Of a stretch of DNA of 64,000 bases, positions 39,428 through 54,726 are shown piece after piece. The notes under the pieces were generated by a model, which was not told the origin of the DNA, did no database searches, and saw only the letters and a list, made by a program, of their open reading frames with translations. Positions within the stretch are counted from its first letter, which is position 1, and each line of letters begins with the position of its first letter. The position numbers and the translations under genes were made by a program. Source of the stretch: a virus; the IMG/VR virus record IMGVR_UViG_3300030333_001364, positions 1-64,000 of that record; one strand, 5' to 3'.

Positions 39428-42154
39428 ATGCCCGCACCTATTTTAAAGTTTAAAAGGGGTAATCTAGTTGATTTACCCGCCTTACAAGCTGGTGAACCGG
39501 GTTTTACAGTCGACAAGTATGACTTGTTTGTCGGTATAAACTCCACCAGTAACGGTAACAAAATAGTTGGTTCTGCAAGGTATTGGACAAGAGAAACCAC
39601 AACAGCTGGTTCAGGTGTCAACCTAGTAGAAGGAACAGATAATGGCACAAGTGCCATAACAATCAAAGCACCAGCAAGTTTGGCTGGTGATCAAACATAT
39701 ATTTTTCCAGGTTCACCTACATCAGGTGGTTTCCTAAGAAGTGATGGAAGTGGAAACCTAACTTGGGATACAGGTTCAGGATTCAATGGAGGATCATTCC
39801 CTCTAAGTGCACTAGACATAGATGGTGGTACTGATATAGGTGCTGCTATAGTTGATGCTGACGAATTTATAGTAGATGATGGTGGTAGCGGTACAAATAG
39901 AAAGGTAGACGCTTCAAGAATAAAAGATTACGTCTTGGGTGGCGGTCAAGGTGCTAACTTTAGTGCTATAAACGTCAGTGGTATTACAACTGCCACATTC
40001 CTCAAGTCCACTACAGCAGTTATTGGTGCTGGTTTGACAGTTACAGGAGCATTGGATGTAGATTCCACCTCTAACTTCGCTAACACCGTTACAATTGCTT
40101 CTGGTGGTGCTAACGTAACAGGTACAGTTTCTGCAACACAGTTCACTGGATCTGGTGCAGGATTATCTGCTGGTACAACACCTATCTCAACACTAGACAT
40201 TGATGGTGCTACCGATATCGGTGCTGCAATAGTTGATGCTGACGAGTTCATCGTTGACGATGGTGGTAATGGTACTAATAGAAAGGTAGATGCTTCAAGA
40301 ATAAAGGACTACGTTCTTGGTGGTGGACAAGGTGCTAACTTTGCTGCTATAGCAGTATCTGGTATTACTACAGTTGCATACGTAGATGCTACACAACTAA
40401 AAGTATCTGGTATCTCAACATTTACTGGACAGACAAACCACTCAACAATCAATGCTTCAAGCACTATTACTGGTACTGCATTCCATACAGGTGCTGAAGG
40501 ATCTGCAATCAGAGTTACATCAAACACAATCTCAGGTCCTGCAACAATCACTCTTGACCCTGCGGGTGTAGGTGATAACTCAGGTAAGGTTGTAATCGCT
40601 GGTGACTTCCAAGTAGACGGTACAACAACTACAGTCAACTCAACCACTATGACAGTGGATGATAAGAACCTTGAGTTGGGTACAGGTGCTGCTAACGATG
40701 CTGCTGCTAATGGTGGTGGTATTACAATCGTATCTGGTGAAGGTAACAAGACATTCCAGTTTGAAGCAACAGGTGACAACCTAGGATCTTCTGAGAACCT
40801 AAACATTGCATCTGGTAAAGCATATAAGATCAATAACACATCAGTTCTAAATGCAACGACTCTTGGATCTGCTGTTGTAAACAGTTCTCTTACTAATGTT
40901 GGTACACTAACTGGTTTATCTGTAAATGGTACTGCATCTGTTACAGGTCAGATCACAGCAGGAGATCTAAGAAATTCTAGTGATGGTCTAATACCTTTAG
41001 TTGGTGTTCAAACTGCATCTGGTCACTCAGGTTTAGTTACAGCATTCAAGTTCAGAGGATCTGGTCTTGATAACTTCATCGTTTCAGATGGTGTTGCTGA
41101 CGTTATCCTAACTGGTGTTGCTGCAACAACATATACATCAAGACAGACACATACTGCTACACAAGGTCAAACTACTTTCACAGTATCTGCTGGATACTCA
41201 GAAGGATTCATTGATGTTTATCAGAACGGTGTTCGTCTTATAAACGGTACAGATTACTCTGCTGAAAACGGATCTACATTCGTTATGACAGAGGGTGCAA
41301 CTGTAGGAGATGAGTTTGAATCAGTAGCATGGAAGACATTAGGTAACGTAGCAACTCTACAAAACCTAAACGTTGTAGACAATCTAACGGTTACAGGAGT
41401 CACGACCTCAGGTACATTTGTCGGTGATATAACGGGAGACATAACGGGTTCTCTTGCCAATGCAACCGCAAATACTCTACCTCTTGCTGTAATAGACATT
41501 GACGGTGGTACTGATATAGGTGCTGCAATAACTGATGGTGATCTATTCATCGTTGATGACGGTGCTGGTGGTACAAACAGAAAGACTGCTGCTTCCAGAA
41601 TCAAGGACTATGTTCTTGGTGGTGGACAGGGTGCTAACTTCTCTGCTATCAATGTTTCTGGTATAACAACTGCAACATTCCTCAAGTCAACAACTGCAAC
41701 AGTTGGTGCTGGACTAACAGTCACAGGTGCATTAGATGTAGACGGTGTAGCAGACTTTGCTACGAACGTGACAATCGGTGGAAACCTAACAGTCAACGGT
41801 ACAACAACCCAGATCAATACCGTAAACACAACCATTGAAGATACATTACTTGAACTTCAAAAGGTTGATGGTGGTGCTCTAAGTTCAGACACCAACAAGG
41901 ACGTTGGTTTAGTCATGAACTACTACAGTGGATCTGCTAAGAAAGCAGCGTTCTACTGGGATGACAGTGCTGCAAGATTTGTTCTTGCTGGAGAAGCATC
42001 TGAGACATCTGGAGTCATGTCACCAAGTGCATACGGTGGACTAGAGGTGGGTTCCTTATACGTGAATGATTGTGCAGGACAATCACAAGTTATTTCATGT
42101 TCTGGAACAACAAGAAGTCTGGAGAATATAACAGTGGATGGTGGCTCGTTCTAA
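39428..42154 (+). CDS. tail fibre-like protein, 908 aa
   Basis: 908 residues. The N-terminal APILKFKRGNLVDLPALQAG, then FTVDKYDLFVGI, is the short attachment domain common to cyanophage fibres. Three near-identical units, LDIDGGTDIGAAIVDADEFI then DGGSGTNRKVDASRIKDYVL then GGGQGANF, occur at about 120-178, 256-302 and 690-738. QTTFTVSAGYSEGFIDVYQN...NGTDYS at about 580-610 is a fibre repeat also present in the 549-aa paralogue. Probably trimeric and receptor-facing. Ends before an intrinsic terminator. Confidence 0.75.
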   Translation: MPAPILKFKRGNLVDLPALQAGEPGFTVDKYDLFVGINSTSNGNKIVGSARYWTRETTTAGSGVNLVEGTDNGTSAITIKAPASLAGDQTYIFPGSPTSGGFLRSDGSGNLTWDTGSGFNGGSFPLSALDIDGGTDIGAAIVDADEFIVDDGGSGTNRKVDASRIKDYVLGGGQGANFSAINVSGITTATFLKSTTAVIGAGLTVTGALDVDSTSNFANTVTIASGGANVTGTVSATQFTGSGAGLSAGTTPISTLDIDGATDIGAAIVDADEFIVDDGGNGTNRKVDASRIKDYVLGGGQGANFAAIAVSGITTVAYVDATQLKVSGISTFTGQTNHSTINASSTITGTAFHTGAEGSAIRVTSNTISGPATITLDPAGVGDNSGKVVIAGDFQVDGTTTTVNSTTMTVDDKNLELGTGAANDAAANGGGITIVSGEGNKTFQFEATGDNLGSSENLNIASGKAYKINNTSVLNATTLGSAVVNSSLTNVGTLTGLSVNGTASVTGQITAGDLRNSSDGLIPLVGVQTASGHSGLVTAFKFRGSGLDNFIVSDGVADVILTGVAATTYTSRQTHTATQGQTTFTVSAGYSEGFIDVYQNGVRLINGTDYSAENGSTFVMTEGATVGDEFESVAWKTLGNVATLQNLNVVDNLTVTGVTTSGTFVGDITGDITGSLANATANTLPLAVIDIDGGTDIGAAITDGDLFIVDDGAGGTNRKTAASRIKDYVLGGGQGANFSAINVSGITTATFLKSTTATVGAGLTVTGALDVDGVADFATNVTIGGNLTVNGTTTQINTVNTTIEDTLLELQKVDGGALSSDTNKDVGLVMNYYSGSAKKAAFYWDDSAARFVLAGEASETSGVMSPSAYGGLEVGSLYVNDCAGQSQVISCSGTTRSLENITVDGGSF

Positions 42155-46851: not shown

Positions 46852-46859
46852 CATAAATA
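46852..46859 (+). promoter_or_regulatory. late promoter of tail fibre 2 (CATAAATA)
   Basis: CATAAATA lies nine bases before the fibre leader hairpin and 50 bases before the ATG. Seven of eight positions match the late consensus. Confidence 0.6.
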
Positions 46860-50808: not shown

Positions 50809-51854
50809 TGATAGGCAATTATTTTTACAACGAGACAGTTAGAAAGACCGTAATTGCTTTTGGAACTTTATTTAATAATATAAAGATCAAAAAGTTTGCG
50901 AGTGATGGTAAGTCTATAAGTCAGATCAAGGTACCCATAGCATATGGTCCTATACAAAGATTCTTAGCAAGAATAGAACAGCAATCAAATTTTGATGATA
51001 ACGTAGCAATCACACTGCCAAGACTATCATTTGAGTTGACTTCATACACATATGATCCTACAAGAAAGGCATCTCCTGTGCAGAAGTTTACCATGAAGTC
51101 TCCTAATGAGAAGGTAAAAATCAAGAAGATGTTCTTGCCAGTGCCATACGATATTGGATTTAGACTTAGTTTTGCTACCAAACAACAAGACGATGCTCTG
51201 CAAATCATAGAACAGATATTACCATTCTTCCAACCATCATATAATGTAACAATCAACATGTTGGAAGGTGTGGAAGAGAAAAGAGATATACCATTTACTC
51301 TGATGTCTACTACATTTACTGATGAGTATGAGGGTGACTACTCTACTCGTAGGTTTATACAGTATGATCTAGACTTTGTTGCTAAGACATACTTCTATCA
51401 AGAGGTTCCAACAGACGAGAACGGTATTATCAAGAAGGTTCAAATCGATTACTCTACTGCTATACGAGCACCAAGAGAACAAAGATACGTTGTCACACCT
51501 CAAGCAACTAAAGATTATAACCAAGATGAAACTGACAAACTTACAGAGTCTATCGATACGAAGAAGACTCTTATCAAAGTTACCTCTGGTGCATCATTCT
51601 CTACTGGTGGTTACATAGAGATTGGTAATGAAGTTATGCGTATCAAGGAGAAGGATTTGAACAACTTAGTGGTTGTTCGTGGACAGTATGGATCTAAGAT
51701 TGCAGAGCATAGCAAGGGTGATGTTATAAATCTTGTTAACGCAGTCGATTCTGACCTTATTGAGATGGGTGATACCTTCGGGTTCAGTGAGACTAGATCA
51801 TTCTTTGACGCTGATGGTCAAGAGTGGAGTCCCGCATTAGGTAATGACGTATGA
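50808..51854 (+). CDS. gp15: tail terminator/sheath-stabilising protein gp15
   Basis: 348 residues (T4 gp15 is 272). NYFYNETVRKTVIAFGTLFN and VPYDIGFRLSF...ALQIIEQILPFFQPSYNVTI match T4 gp15 (SFRRYATLMGDLFSNI, QIVEQILPYFQP). Gp15 caps the sheath and tube. Residues about 245-310 (KTLIKVTSGASFSTGGYIEI, RIKEKDLNNLVVVRGQYGSK, HSKGD) are an added module also seen in three baseplate proteins. Coupled to gp14 by TAATG. Confidence 0.9.
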   Translation: MIGNYFYNETVRKTVIAFGTLFNNIKIKKFASDGKSISQIKVPIAYGPIQRFLARIEQQSNFDDNVAITLPRLSFELTSYTYDPTRKASPVQKFTMKSPNEKVKIKKMFLPVPYDIGFRLSFATKQQDDALQIIEQILPFFQPSYNVTINMLEGVEEKRDIPFTLMSTTFTDEYEGDYSTRRFIQYDLDFVAKTYFYQEVPTDENGIIKKVQIDYSTAIRAPREQRYVVTPQATKDYNQDETDKLTESIDTKKTLIKVTSGASFSTGGYIEIGNEVMRIKEKDLNNLVVVRGQYGSKIAEHSKGDVINLVNAVDSDLIEMGDTFGFSETRSFFDADGQEWSPALGNDV

Positions 51855-52339
51855 CAAAAGATTATGATCCTTTAGATAAACAATCAACCACATTTAGTCC
51901 TATAGATGAAGCATTAGAAGTCAAAGCAACTGATGTAGTCAAACAATCTAAGAAGGTAAAGAAGGTTGATACTACACCTAGAGATGACTTTGAATATTCT
52001 CGTGCACAGTTATACAATATTGTAGAGAAAGGACAAGAAGCAATGAATGGTATCCTTGATGTGTGTCAAGATACTCAACATCCACGTGCATATGAAGTTG
52101 CAGGACAACTTGTCAAAGCAGTAGGAGATGTAACTGATAAGATTATAGACTTACAAAGAAAGATGAAGGACTTGGAGAAGGAAGATAAACCTACACAAGT
52201 TACTAATAACTCTTTGTTTGTTGGTAGTACTGCTGACCTACAAAAAATGATCAAGAAAGGATTAGCTGGTGCACCTGTGCCACAACCTAAAACTCCTAGT
52301 GTAGATCTAAGTTCCTTAGATATAGACAGGTCTCCATAA
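51851..52339 (+). CDS. gp16: terminase small subunit gp16
   Basis: 162 residues, same as T4 gp16 (164). RDDFEYSRAQLYNIVEKGQE, then HPRAYEVAGQLVKAVGDVTD and IIDLQRKMKDLE, is the central oligomerisation helix pair. NSLFVGSTADLQKMIKKGL matches the ATVFMGSPTEL part of T4. Gp16 forms the ring that regulates DNA cutting by gp17. ATGA coupling to gp15. Unusually, another gene separates it from gp17. Confidence 0.9.
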   Translation: MTKDYDPLDKQSTTFSPIDEALEVKATDVVKQSKKVKKVDTTPRDDFEYSRAQLYNIVEKGQEAMNGILDVCQDTQHPRAYEVAGQLVKAVGDVTDKIIDLQRKMKDLEKEDKPTQVTNNSLFVGSTADLQKMIKKGLAGAPVPQPKTPSVDLSSLDIDRSP

Positions 52340-52342
52340 ATA
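52335..52342 (+). promoter_or_regulatory. late promoter (CATAAATA)
   Basis: CATAAATA overlaps the gp16 stop and lies 21 bases before the next ATG. Seven of eight positions match the late consensus. Confidence 0.6.
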
Positions 52343-52363: not shown

Positions 52364-53068
52364 ATGGCTGACACATACGTAAAAAGTGATAGAAACAAAT
52401 GGGGTCTTCCAAAAGGATTGAAGTCTTCTGGTGGCGGGAAAAAGGATGGAGGAACAAGTCCTAGTGTTTTCAAGAAGGTGAGAGATACTCTGACTATGAG
52501 TTTTGATTATGAAAATCTTGATGAAGCGACTAGAAGAAATATAAAGAATCCTAAGTATAGAAATCCAGACGGGTCATTCAATAAAGAGAAGTATGATGCT
52601 GACAAGGGTAGTGTAGAAACAAAGAAGGGTGGTGGAAGACCACGTAAGAAGGGTGGTGCTATTGTAAAAACTCAAAGTTCATCTATAACACCAGCATCAA
52701 AAAGTGAAATAGTAAAGGCAGAACCTAAGGGTGAGATTACAAAATCTGAACCTAAGGGTGAGATAACAAAATCAGATAAGGGTGAGATAGTCAAGTCCAA
52801 AGGTGGAGCAATAGAGAAGAGCAATACTAACAAGGCAGAACCTGGCAAACCAAAAGATGATAAGATTAAACTTACCAAAACCAAACAAAGTTTAGGAGTA
52901 GGAAAAGCATTGAAGAAAGCAGGACCTTATGTCAAGGCAGCAGCAAAAGTAGCACAAGTTGCATACAAAGGTATAAGAGCTGTAGGTGGTGCGACTAAAG
53001 CATTTGATCCTAAGAACAAAGGATGGGAGTCATATATACAGAGAACTACTGACCATATAGTTGACTGA
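52364..53068 (+). CDS. Lys-rich repeat protein between the terminase genes, 234 aa
   Basis: 234 residues, strongly basic and mostly low complexity. KKGGGRPRKKGGAI has the GRP core of an AT-hook. After it KAEPKGEITKSEPKGEITKS and KGEIVKSKGGAIEKS form a tandem PKGEI(T/V)KS repeat, followed by a Lys/Ala-rich helix (GKALKKAGPYVKAAAKVAQV) and AFDPKNKGWESYIQRTTDHI. Sits between gp16 and gp17 with TGATG contact to gp17. DNA binding during packaging, or a protein carried into the host with the DNA, is an inference. Confidence 0.65.
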   Translation: MADTYVKSDRNKWGLPKGLKSSGGGKKDGGTSPSVFKKVRDTLTMSFDYENLDEATRRNIKNPKYRNPDGSFNKEKYDADKGSVETKKGGGRPRKKGGAIVKTQSSSITPASKSEIVKAEPKGEITKSEPKGEITKSDKGEIVKSKGGAIEKSNTNKAEPGKPKDDKIKLTKTKQSLGVGKALKKAGPYVKAAAKVAQVAYKGIRAVGGATKAFDPKNKGWESYIQRTTDHIVD

Positions 53069-54726
53069 TGCCACAAGCAAGTGACATATATCTTGGTAAT
53101 CCCAATCTAAAAAAGGCGAATACCAAGCAACAATTTACTGAAGAACAAATTGTTGAATTTATTAGATGTAAGGATGATCCAATATATTTTACAGAGAAAT
53201 ACATTCAAATCGTCAACGTTGACGAGGGACTTGTACCATTTAAGATGTACAAGTTTCAAGAGAAATTACTAAGAAGATTCCATAAGAACCGTTTCAATAT
53301 ATGTAAGATGCCACGTCAGACTGGTAAGTCTACGACTGTGGTTTCATATCTACTACACTATGCGATCTTCAATGATCAGGTAAACATTGGTATCCTTGCT
53401 AACAAGGCAGCAACTGCAAGAGACTTGCTTGGTAGATTACAACTAGCATATGAGAACCTACCTAAGTGGATGCAACAGGGTATCATTGCTTGGAACAAAG
53501 GATCTATGGAACTAGAGAATGGTTCTAAGATCATTGCAGCATCTACATCTGCATCTGCTGTTCGAGGTATGTCATTCAACATTATATTCTTGGACGAATT
53601 TGCTTTCGTTCAAAACCATCTGGCAGATGACTTCTTTGCGTCTGTGTATCCTACTATATCTTCTGGTAAATCTACGAAGGTTATAATAGTATCCACTCCA
53701 CATGGTATGAATCACTTCTATCGAATGTGGCATGATGCAGAGCGTGGTCAGAACGAGTATATTGCAACAGAGGTGCACTGGTCTGAGGTGCCAGGTAGAG
53801 ATAAGAAATGGAAAGAACAAACTATAAAGAACACCAGTAAGCAACAGTTTGCTATTGAGTTTGAGTGTGAGTTCTTAGGATCTGTTGACACTCTTATCAA
53901 TGCAGCGAAACTCAAATCACTGGTATATGAACAACCAATAGAGCAGAATGGTAAACTACTTGTATATGAAAGACCATTCAAGAAAAGAGATTATATTGTA
54001 ACAGTTGACGTAGCAAGAGGAGTTGGTAAAGACTACAGTGCTTTCATAGTTGCTGATATTACAGAGTTCCCATACAAGGTTGTGGCAACATATAGAGACA
54101 ATGAAATCAAACCTATGCTCTTCCCTTCTGTAATTGCAGATGTGGCAAAGGGATATAACAATGCGTATGTCCTATGCGAAGTAAATGATATTGGTGATCA
54201 AGTAGCATCTATACTATTCTATGATCTTGAATATGAGAATTTACTCATGGTTGCTATGAGAGGACGTGCAGGACAGATAGTTGGATCAGGATTCTCTGGT
54301 GTGAAGACGCAGTTGGGTGTCAAGATGAGTCAGGTAACTAAGAAGTTAGGTTGTTCTAACCTGAAGACACTGATAGAAGAAGATAAACTTACATTCTGTG
54401 ATTATAATATCATAAGTGAGTTGACTACCTTCATACAAAAGAGACAGTCATTTGAGGCAGAAGAGGGTTGTAATGATGATCTAGCAATGTGTTTGGTTAT
54501 CTTTGCGTGGTTGGTTGCACAGGATTATTTCAAGGAGATGACTGACTCTGACGTAAGAAAACGAATATACGATGAGCAGAAGAATGCAATAGAACAAGAC
54601 ATGGCACCCTTTGGTTTTATATGTGACGGTTTTGAGGAAATGGGAGGCGAAACTGTAGAATCAGATGGGACAGTTTGGAAGACAGATGAGTACGGGGATC
54701 GTGCCTATATGTGGGAATATCGCTAG
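53068..54726 (+). CDS. gp17: terminase large subunit gp17
   Basis: 552 residues (T4: 610). Walker A PRQTGKST at 82-89, Walker B IIFLDEFAF with D176/E177, and the STPHGMNHFYRMW coupling motif form the ATPase half. The nuclease half has VDVARGVGKDYSAF (D314), VLCEVNDIGDQV (E371) and NDDLAMCLVIFA (D471) as the metal-binding acidic triad. It powers DNA packaging and cuts the concatemer. Confidence 0.95.
   Translation: MPQASDIYLGNPNLKKANTKQQFTEEQIVEFIRCKDDPIYFTEKYIQIVNVDEGLVPFKMYKFQEKLLRRFHKNRFNICKMPRQTGKSTTVVSYLLHYAIFNDQVNIGILANKAATARDLLGRLQLAYENLPKWMQQGIIAWNKGSMELENGSKIIAASTSASAVRGMSFNIIFLDEFAFVQNHLADDFFASVYPTISSGKSTKVIIVSTPHGMNHFYRMWHDAERGQNEYIATEVHWSEVPGRDKKWKEQTIKNTSKQQFAIEFECEFLGSVDTLINAAKLKSLVYEQPIEQNGKLLVYERPFKKRDYIVTVDVARGVGKDYSAFIVADITEFPYKVVATYRDNEIKPMLFPSVIADVAKGYNNAYVLCEVNDIGDQVASILFYDLEYENLLMVAMRGRAGQIVGSGFSGVKTQLGVKMSQVTKKLGCSNLKTLIEEDKLTFCDYNIISELTTFIQKRQSFEAEEGCNDDLAMCLVIFAWLVAQDYFKEMTDSDVRKRIYDEQKNAIEQDMAPFGFICDGFEEMGGETVESDGTVWKTDEYGDRAYMWEYR

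Follow-up and report, generated by a model that had tools for sequence, protein, structure and literature searches.

A variable family of basic, predicted disordered proteins between the terminase genes of an uncultured marine T4-like phage and its relatives

The gp16-gp17 interval in T4 and in marine phages

In marine cyanomyoviruses, the interval between the terminase genes gp16 and gp17 (g15 to g18) is described in portions of two published accounts as a hyperplastic hot spot that collects metabolic and host-directed genes (PMC2984593, PMC3037559). This slot holds nine genes in P-SSM4, one of which encodes a plastoquinol terminal oxidase, three genes in P-SSM2, one each in S-SSM7 and Melnitz-1, and a single 115-aa ORF in AG-345-D19. 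In T4 itself, as the sequence-only reading had stated, the two terminase genes are adjacent, with the end of gp16 overlapping the start of gp17 by 17 nt and no additional gene between them. A second point of comparison is provided by the T4 internal proteins, which are described in sections of two further accounts as basic and poorly conserved proteins that carry a targeting peptide and are trimmed after L/I-x-E (PMC9026906, PMC3012670); one of them, IPI, has a compact fold (PMC3012670).

The stretch of DNA analyzed here (the window) is 64,000 nucleotides long and comprises positions 1 to 64,000 of an incomplete source record of 118,972 bases. The virus is an uncultured marine T4-like phage. 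Among ten proteins of the record that were tested, matches identified a gp55-type late sigma factor, homologs of gp21 and gp22, a UvsX-like recombinase, a clamp loader, and a transaldolase; psbA was looked for in the incomplete record and was not found. The DNA relatives of window positions 40000 to 64000 in the phage collection comprise 119 records, nearly all of them cyanophages, with identities of approximately 72 to 77% among the matches listed.

The gene studied here, X, is an intact ORF of 234 aa on the plus strand (52364 to 53068). It lies between a homolog of the terminase small subunit gp16 (162 aa; 51851 to 52339, plus strand; PHROG 445, E 6e-49) and a homolog of the large subunit gp17 (552 aa; 53068 to 54726, plus strand; PHROG 2, E 1e-76; Pfam Terminase_6N and 6C), so that the separation of the two terminase genes noted in the sequence-only reading is confirmed by the ORF call and by the terminase matches on each side. 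Like the hyperplastic-region genes, X stands between g15/g16 and g17/g18 in a region of variable content. Because the slot is a published hot spot and separation of gp16 from gp17 is ordinary in this group, position alone does not imply a role in packaging. What is less ordinary is that a single basic, low-complexity protein is retained there, set against gp17, in three of the classes of slot occupants distinguished below (A, C, and D).

Relatives of X and their divergence

X has no Pfam or PHROG family at E ≤1 and no match at E ≤10 among 50,697 phage records, cultured phages included. When its N- and C-terminal consensus stretches were compared with phages, nothing credible was returned, the one match at E 10 belonging to an unrelated small virus. 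A scan of 84,980 prokaryotic genomes for relatives yielded 33 pattern stretches, none of which was confirmed. Relatives of X (class A) were found on 16 IMG/VR contigs with best-segment identities of 68 to 98%, and a search for gp16 relatives retrieved 44 loci. Downstream of gp16, these loci carried a gene of class A (15 loci), class B (4 loci), class C (1 locus), or class D (12 loci); other genes stood there in 11 loci, and nothing was readable in 1. Among 12 more distant gp16 loci, X was missing from 11; in the remaining one, nothing is seen downstream of gp16. Classes A and B/C are clearly homologous (hhalign probability of 99.7 over 174 columns), and class A shares with class D a module of 28 columns around RRN[IV]KNPKYRNPDGSFNK (hhalign probability of 95.4); the comparison of classes B/C with class D was not significant (11%).

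The downstream end of X was examined in 36 loci, of which 31 contain a closed gene and 5 are on contigs that end inside it. X adjoins gp17 in all 31 closed loci, with a spacing of -17 to +4 nt; the 17-nt overlap results from gp17 starts at 2139 in L050 and at 6674 in L053. The synteny that had been suggested as a check held on the gp17 side in all these closed loci of classes A to D, but it does not extend to the 11 of 44 gp16 loci with other genes, and no match was found in the cultured phages searched. In class B, a 200-aa gene is inserted between gp16 and X, not between X and gp17. The inserted gene (L050:957-1559, L051:3776-4378, L052:3201-3803, and L053:5492-6094) has no PHROG match and, in the one copy tested (L050), no Pfam match. 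X thus represents a real and variable protein family that has not been described before; the hot spot was known, and the family itself is new.

The proteins of this family diverge rapidly. For X, dN/dS was 0.38 to 0.56 between the window and five relatives, compared with 0.04 to 0.15 for gp16 (three relatives) and 0.05 to 0.07 for gp17 (four relatives). Nonsynonymous divergence of X exceeded that of gp17 in four of four pairs (Fisher p ≤3.8e-12). At synonymous sites, X was more divergent than gp17 in three of the pairs and less divergent in the fourth (p of 3e-5 to 0.003). Such divergence points to recombinational exchange in addition to weak constraint. Rapid evolution, together with repeats that vary between relatives, therefore argues for an exchangeable accessory rather than a core part of the motor.

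Promoter, composition, and motifs of X

A T4-type late promoter box, ATAAATA, lies over the gp16 stop codon (52336 to 52342, plus strand) and ends 22 nt upstream of the X start codon. In the whole record, this heptamer occurs 21 times on the plus strand and once on the minus strand. Fifteen of the 21 plus-strand copies sit within 80 nt upstream of an ORF, and 14 of the 21 fall 18 to 45 nt upstream of plus-strand ORFs, where ATAAATA is the most enriched heptamer (22.8-fold) among those with at least six copies in that band. Counted in the window without regard to position, ATAAATA shows no excess (12 versus 20 expected), and the signal rests on position and strand, not on the raw count. The box in front of X is kept in 16 of 16 class A loci and in the one class C locus examined; X thus shows both features of a T4-type late gene: the box stands at promoter distance, and the genome also carries a gene for a gp55-type sigma factor. 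The near restriction of ATAAATA to the plus strand just upstream of ORFs also supplies a usable late-promoter map of this virus, with examples in the window at 46853, 48556, 54742, and 59316.

The start codon of gp17 shares a base with the stop codon of X (TGATG, 53066 to 53070, plus strand), and the same holds for every one of the 13 class A loci in which X is closed. Judging from this overlap, translation of gp17 is probably coupled to that of X. Because the X stop overlaps the gp17 start, the ATAAATA box can also serve gp17. The sequence-only reading had given X a late promoter of its own; the box is convincing, but it is not exclusive to X.

X was described from the outset as basic, and its net charge of +25 ranks second among the 141 ORFs of the record, a mechanical set of ATG ORFs of at least 60 aa whose overlaps were thinned by length without curation. 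The full-length slot proteins of classes B to D that were tested have net charges of +20 to +36. The tandem PKGEITKS-type repeats and the GGGRPRKKGG string (residues 89 to 98; 52628 to 52657) are both present as reported. Tandem Repeats Finder (TRF) places the (E)PKGEI(T/V)KS repeat at 52719 to 52789, with a period of 27 and 2.7 copies; four units were recognized in X (KSEIVKA, KGEITKS, KGEITKS, and KGEIVKS), compared with at most one in 20,000 composition shuffles. The guess that repeat number varies proved sound, since both the number and the form of the repeats differ among relatives. The ends of X are conserved, and the middle is variable. The C-terminal part (residues 171 to 234; 52874 to 53065) combines an Ala/Lys-rich stretch that is predicted to be helix-like with a conserved tail that reads KAFDPK..WESYIQR in X and KAFDPK..[SG][WF]ESYIQR[TSQ]T across classes A to C; most class D proteins end in SSF..E..TF[KQ][DEQ][YF][LI] instead. 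An AlphaFold model built with ten class A sequences has a mean pLDDT of 41.3 and contains only short, low-confidence helices, so that X is predicted to be essentially without a fold and intrinsically disordered. The least poorly predicted part (pLDDT of 50 to 70) is the short module RRNIKNPKYRNPDGSFNKEKYDADKG (residues 57 to 82; 52532 to 52609), which is common to the class D slot occupants.

The AT-hook, which binds in the minor groove of AT-rich DNA, has as its consensus a (P)RGRP core with basic flanks. X resembles it in having GRP followed by basic residues but differs in that no basic residue precedes GRP (GGGRP, not RGRP) and in that the motif occurs in a single copy. When composition was shuffled 20,000 times, GRP[RK]K turned up in 0.2% of the shuffles and bare GRP in 5%. 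GGGRPRKKGG takes the form G[GA]GRPR[KN]KGG across class A and is not retained in classes B, C, and D. No Pfam AT_hook match was obtained at E ≤1, a weak negative, since short models score poorly. The AT-hook-like label originally attached to this protein is therefore weak, since it describes half of a core, the GRP and its basic right flank, and X is not classed as an AT-hook protein.

Possible roles of X and comparison with known systems

We tentatively read X as a late, lysine-rich, intrinsically disordered accessory associated with the phage DNA at the head and perhaps taken into the head as the T4 internal proteins are (rough probability, 0.4). A gp55-type late promoter would drive transcription of the X gene, with translation in line with that of gp17, in which case X would be made when and where genomes are packaged. 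A short terminal peptide, which gp21 may trim, would perhaps direct the protein into the prohead, and once inside the protein would neutralize or organize DNA; it may then enter the next host, as the T4 internal proteins do. Late timing, charge, predicted disorder, and address suggest that X acts on DNA as heads fill, and we infer DNA binding, head location, processing, and delivery. The sequence-only reading had proposed that X is a DNA-binding accessory of the packaging motor. Late expression, variable repeats, and a composition like that of DNA-binding proteins survive from that reading, but the motor role sits poorly with divergence several-fold faster than that of gp16 and gp17, with the absence of X from 11 of 12 distant loci, and with the hot-spot slot. 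Its other suggestion, a protein packaged and delivered with the DNA, may hold.

The parallel with T4 internal proteins was followed into individual motifs. Conserved ends combined with rapid divergence would match the pattern that portions of the T4 literature describe for these proteins (PMC9026906, PMC3012670). A candidate prohead-protease site, LDE (residues 52 to 54; 52517 to 52525), fits the L/I-X-E motif as given in part of one account (PMC9026906) and is followed by A in X; 1.8 L/I/V-x-E sites are expected in X by composition. The aligned position in class B reads LVE, most class D proteins have no L/I/V-x-E site, and gp23 of this virus has FLSE followed by A near residue 50. X starts with MADTYVKSDRNKWG and shows no N-terminal capsid targeting peptide, its aromatic tail being C-terminal. 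Matches to a pattern like the capsid targeting sequence (CTS) numbered 2 at N termini, 8 internally, and 2 at C termini in the record, over 2115, 31468, and 2256 positions, respectively. Because these counts show no clear enrichment of the pattern toward protein ends, the idea that the tail serves as a targeting peptide stays a lead, and because the L-x-E site is at the level expected from composition, is lacking in most of class D, and is unaccompanied by an N-terminal targeting peptide, X is not classed as an internal protein.

A rather unlikely alternative is that X acts outside the virion as a transient packaging factor, holding concatemer DNA or bridging gp16, gp17, and DNA through its basic repeats while its tail binds terminase or portal. 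Its position directly against gp17 in classes A to D, with stop and start overlapping, and its basic, predicted disordered character would suit such a role, as would the class B arrangement, in which the extra gene parts gp16 from X but never X from gp17. The would-be partners, however, have dN/dS values of 0.04 to 0.15 against 0.38 to 0.56 for X, and X is missing from the cultured phages searched and from 11 of 44 gp16 loci, where other genes stand. It is unlikely that X is instead an intracellular late effector or anti-defense protein acting on host nucleic acid or proteins. Metabolic and host-directed genes are what the cited portions of the cyanomyovirus accounts place in this hot spot (PMC2984593, PMC3037559), the P-SSM4 plastoquinol terminal oxidase among them, and fast evolution with synonymous rates that depart from those of gp17 in both directions suggests exchange by recombination. 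Against an effector stand the late-promoter box in front of X and the finding that what adjoins gp17 in classes A to D is a single basic, low-complexity protein, similar in size from class to class, rather than a varying gene set.

It is quite unlikely, on present evidence, that the favored reading of X as a head-associated accessory can be extended to a fuller scheme. In that scheme, the terminase operon of a marine T4-like phage group would carry a rapidly swapped, gp17-coupled, disordered polycation whose C-terminal docking tail is the counterpart of the T4 capsid targeting sequence. At the onset of packaging, this tail would load into the head a protein that condenses DNA or is directed at the host, and the gp16-gp17 slot would be the exchange site. 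Very improbable is the reading that X is kept mainly as a translated leader, controlling gp17 levels through coupled reinitiation, with a sequence that matters little: the TGATG overlap in every closed class A locus (13 of 13) and the takeover by X of the place of the 17-nt T4 gp16/gp17 overlap would fit, but the dN/dS of X, at 0.38 to 0.56, is still well below 1, and motifs at both ends persist across classes A to C. A core terminase or motor subunit was rejected, given that X is absent between T4 gp16 and gp17, is replaced by other genes in 11 of 44 loci, and has a several-fold higher dN/dS.

Other lineages have other basic proteins in the slot. T4-GC110 of P-SSM4 (PSSM4_093, L018:2699-3367; net charge of +35) just passes the Pfam cutoff for S-adenosylmethionine lyase (29 versus 28 bits, E 1e-6), a match that could be compositional, and falls into PHROG families 26015 and 727 together with a protein of this virus encoded outside the window. 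The latter, the most basic of the 141 ORFs (798 aa, net charge of +102; record positions 98054 to 100450, L036:15054-17450), contains a DUF6321 domain and a subthreshold match to DUF3008. DUF6321 is also found in a 93-aa slot protein of another lineage, which starts with MKSFKQLRNEL and follows gp16 (L075:6336-6617 and L076:1333-1614). A literature search returned no mention of DUF6321 and none of DUF3008 together with phage. Directly after the 798-aa gene, also outside the window, is a 103-aa protein with no PHROG match (record positions 100447 to 100758, L036:17447-17758), whose MKSYKQFVTE start we take to resemble a T4-type N-terminal targeting peptide. X shows no sequence kinship with this pool of T4-GC110, DUF6321, and 798-aa proteins.

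Short likenesses to X were found in two further proteins. T4-GC121 of P-SSM2 (663 aa), encoded right after gp16, contains SRNKFGYPDSLKPG, which is like the N terminus of X (44% over 25 residues, E 0.009 when six proteins were compared); the protein is three times longer than X, and the likeness is seen in the short motif alone. In SSSM7_197 of Synechococcus phage S-SSM7 (T4-GC 1361), GRPKK comes after an RPNIRSYKG module, an arrangement that classes C and D have and that X has less closely. The match of SSSM7_197 to class C is limited to 21 residues (E 0.05), and its gene lies elsewhere in the S-SSM7 genome, next to genes that in P-SSM4 occupy the gp16-gp17 slot. Residues 153 to 195 of SSSM7_197 (L078:3809-4405), which include HWREEF, are 54% identical to an annotated structural protein of Synechococcus phage Sf-FS3 (L095:3001-3135), and T4-GC121 and this virus (record positions 97273 to 98064) have WR[EAD] stretches that resemble it.

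If X is a head or packaging protein, then the cyanophage hot spot also exchanges DNA-handling proteins and does not only park metabolic genes. Such a role would also provide a defined family with conserved ends to seek in virion proteomes and would show how phages swap DNA-handling parts without breaking gp17 expression. X shares with IPI, IPII, and IPIII of T4 a basic composition, late expression, poor conservation combined with a short conserved peptide, and a candidate L-x-E site. It differs from them in having no N-terminal targeting peptide, in being predicted to be disordered where IPI is compact, and in being encoded between gp16 and gp17; T4 internal protein genes are not known to occur next to gp17. 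With the hyperplastic-region genes, X shares the slot and its variability between lineages. X differs from a metabolic cargo gene in having a late-promoter box, in encoding a basic, predicted disordered protein, and in being fixed against gp17 in classes A to D.
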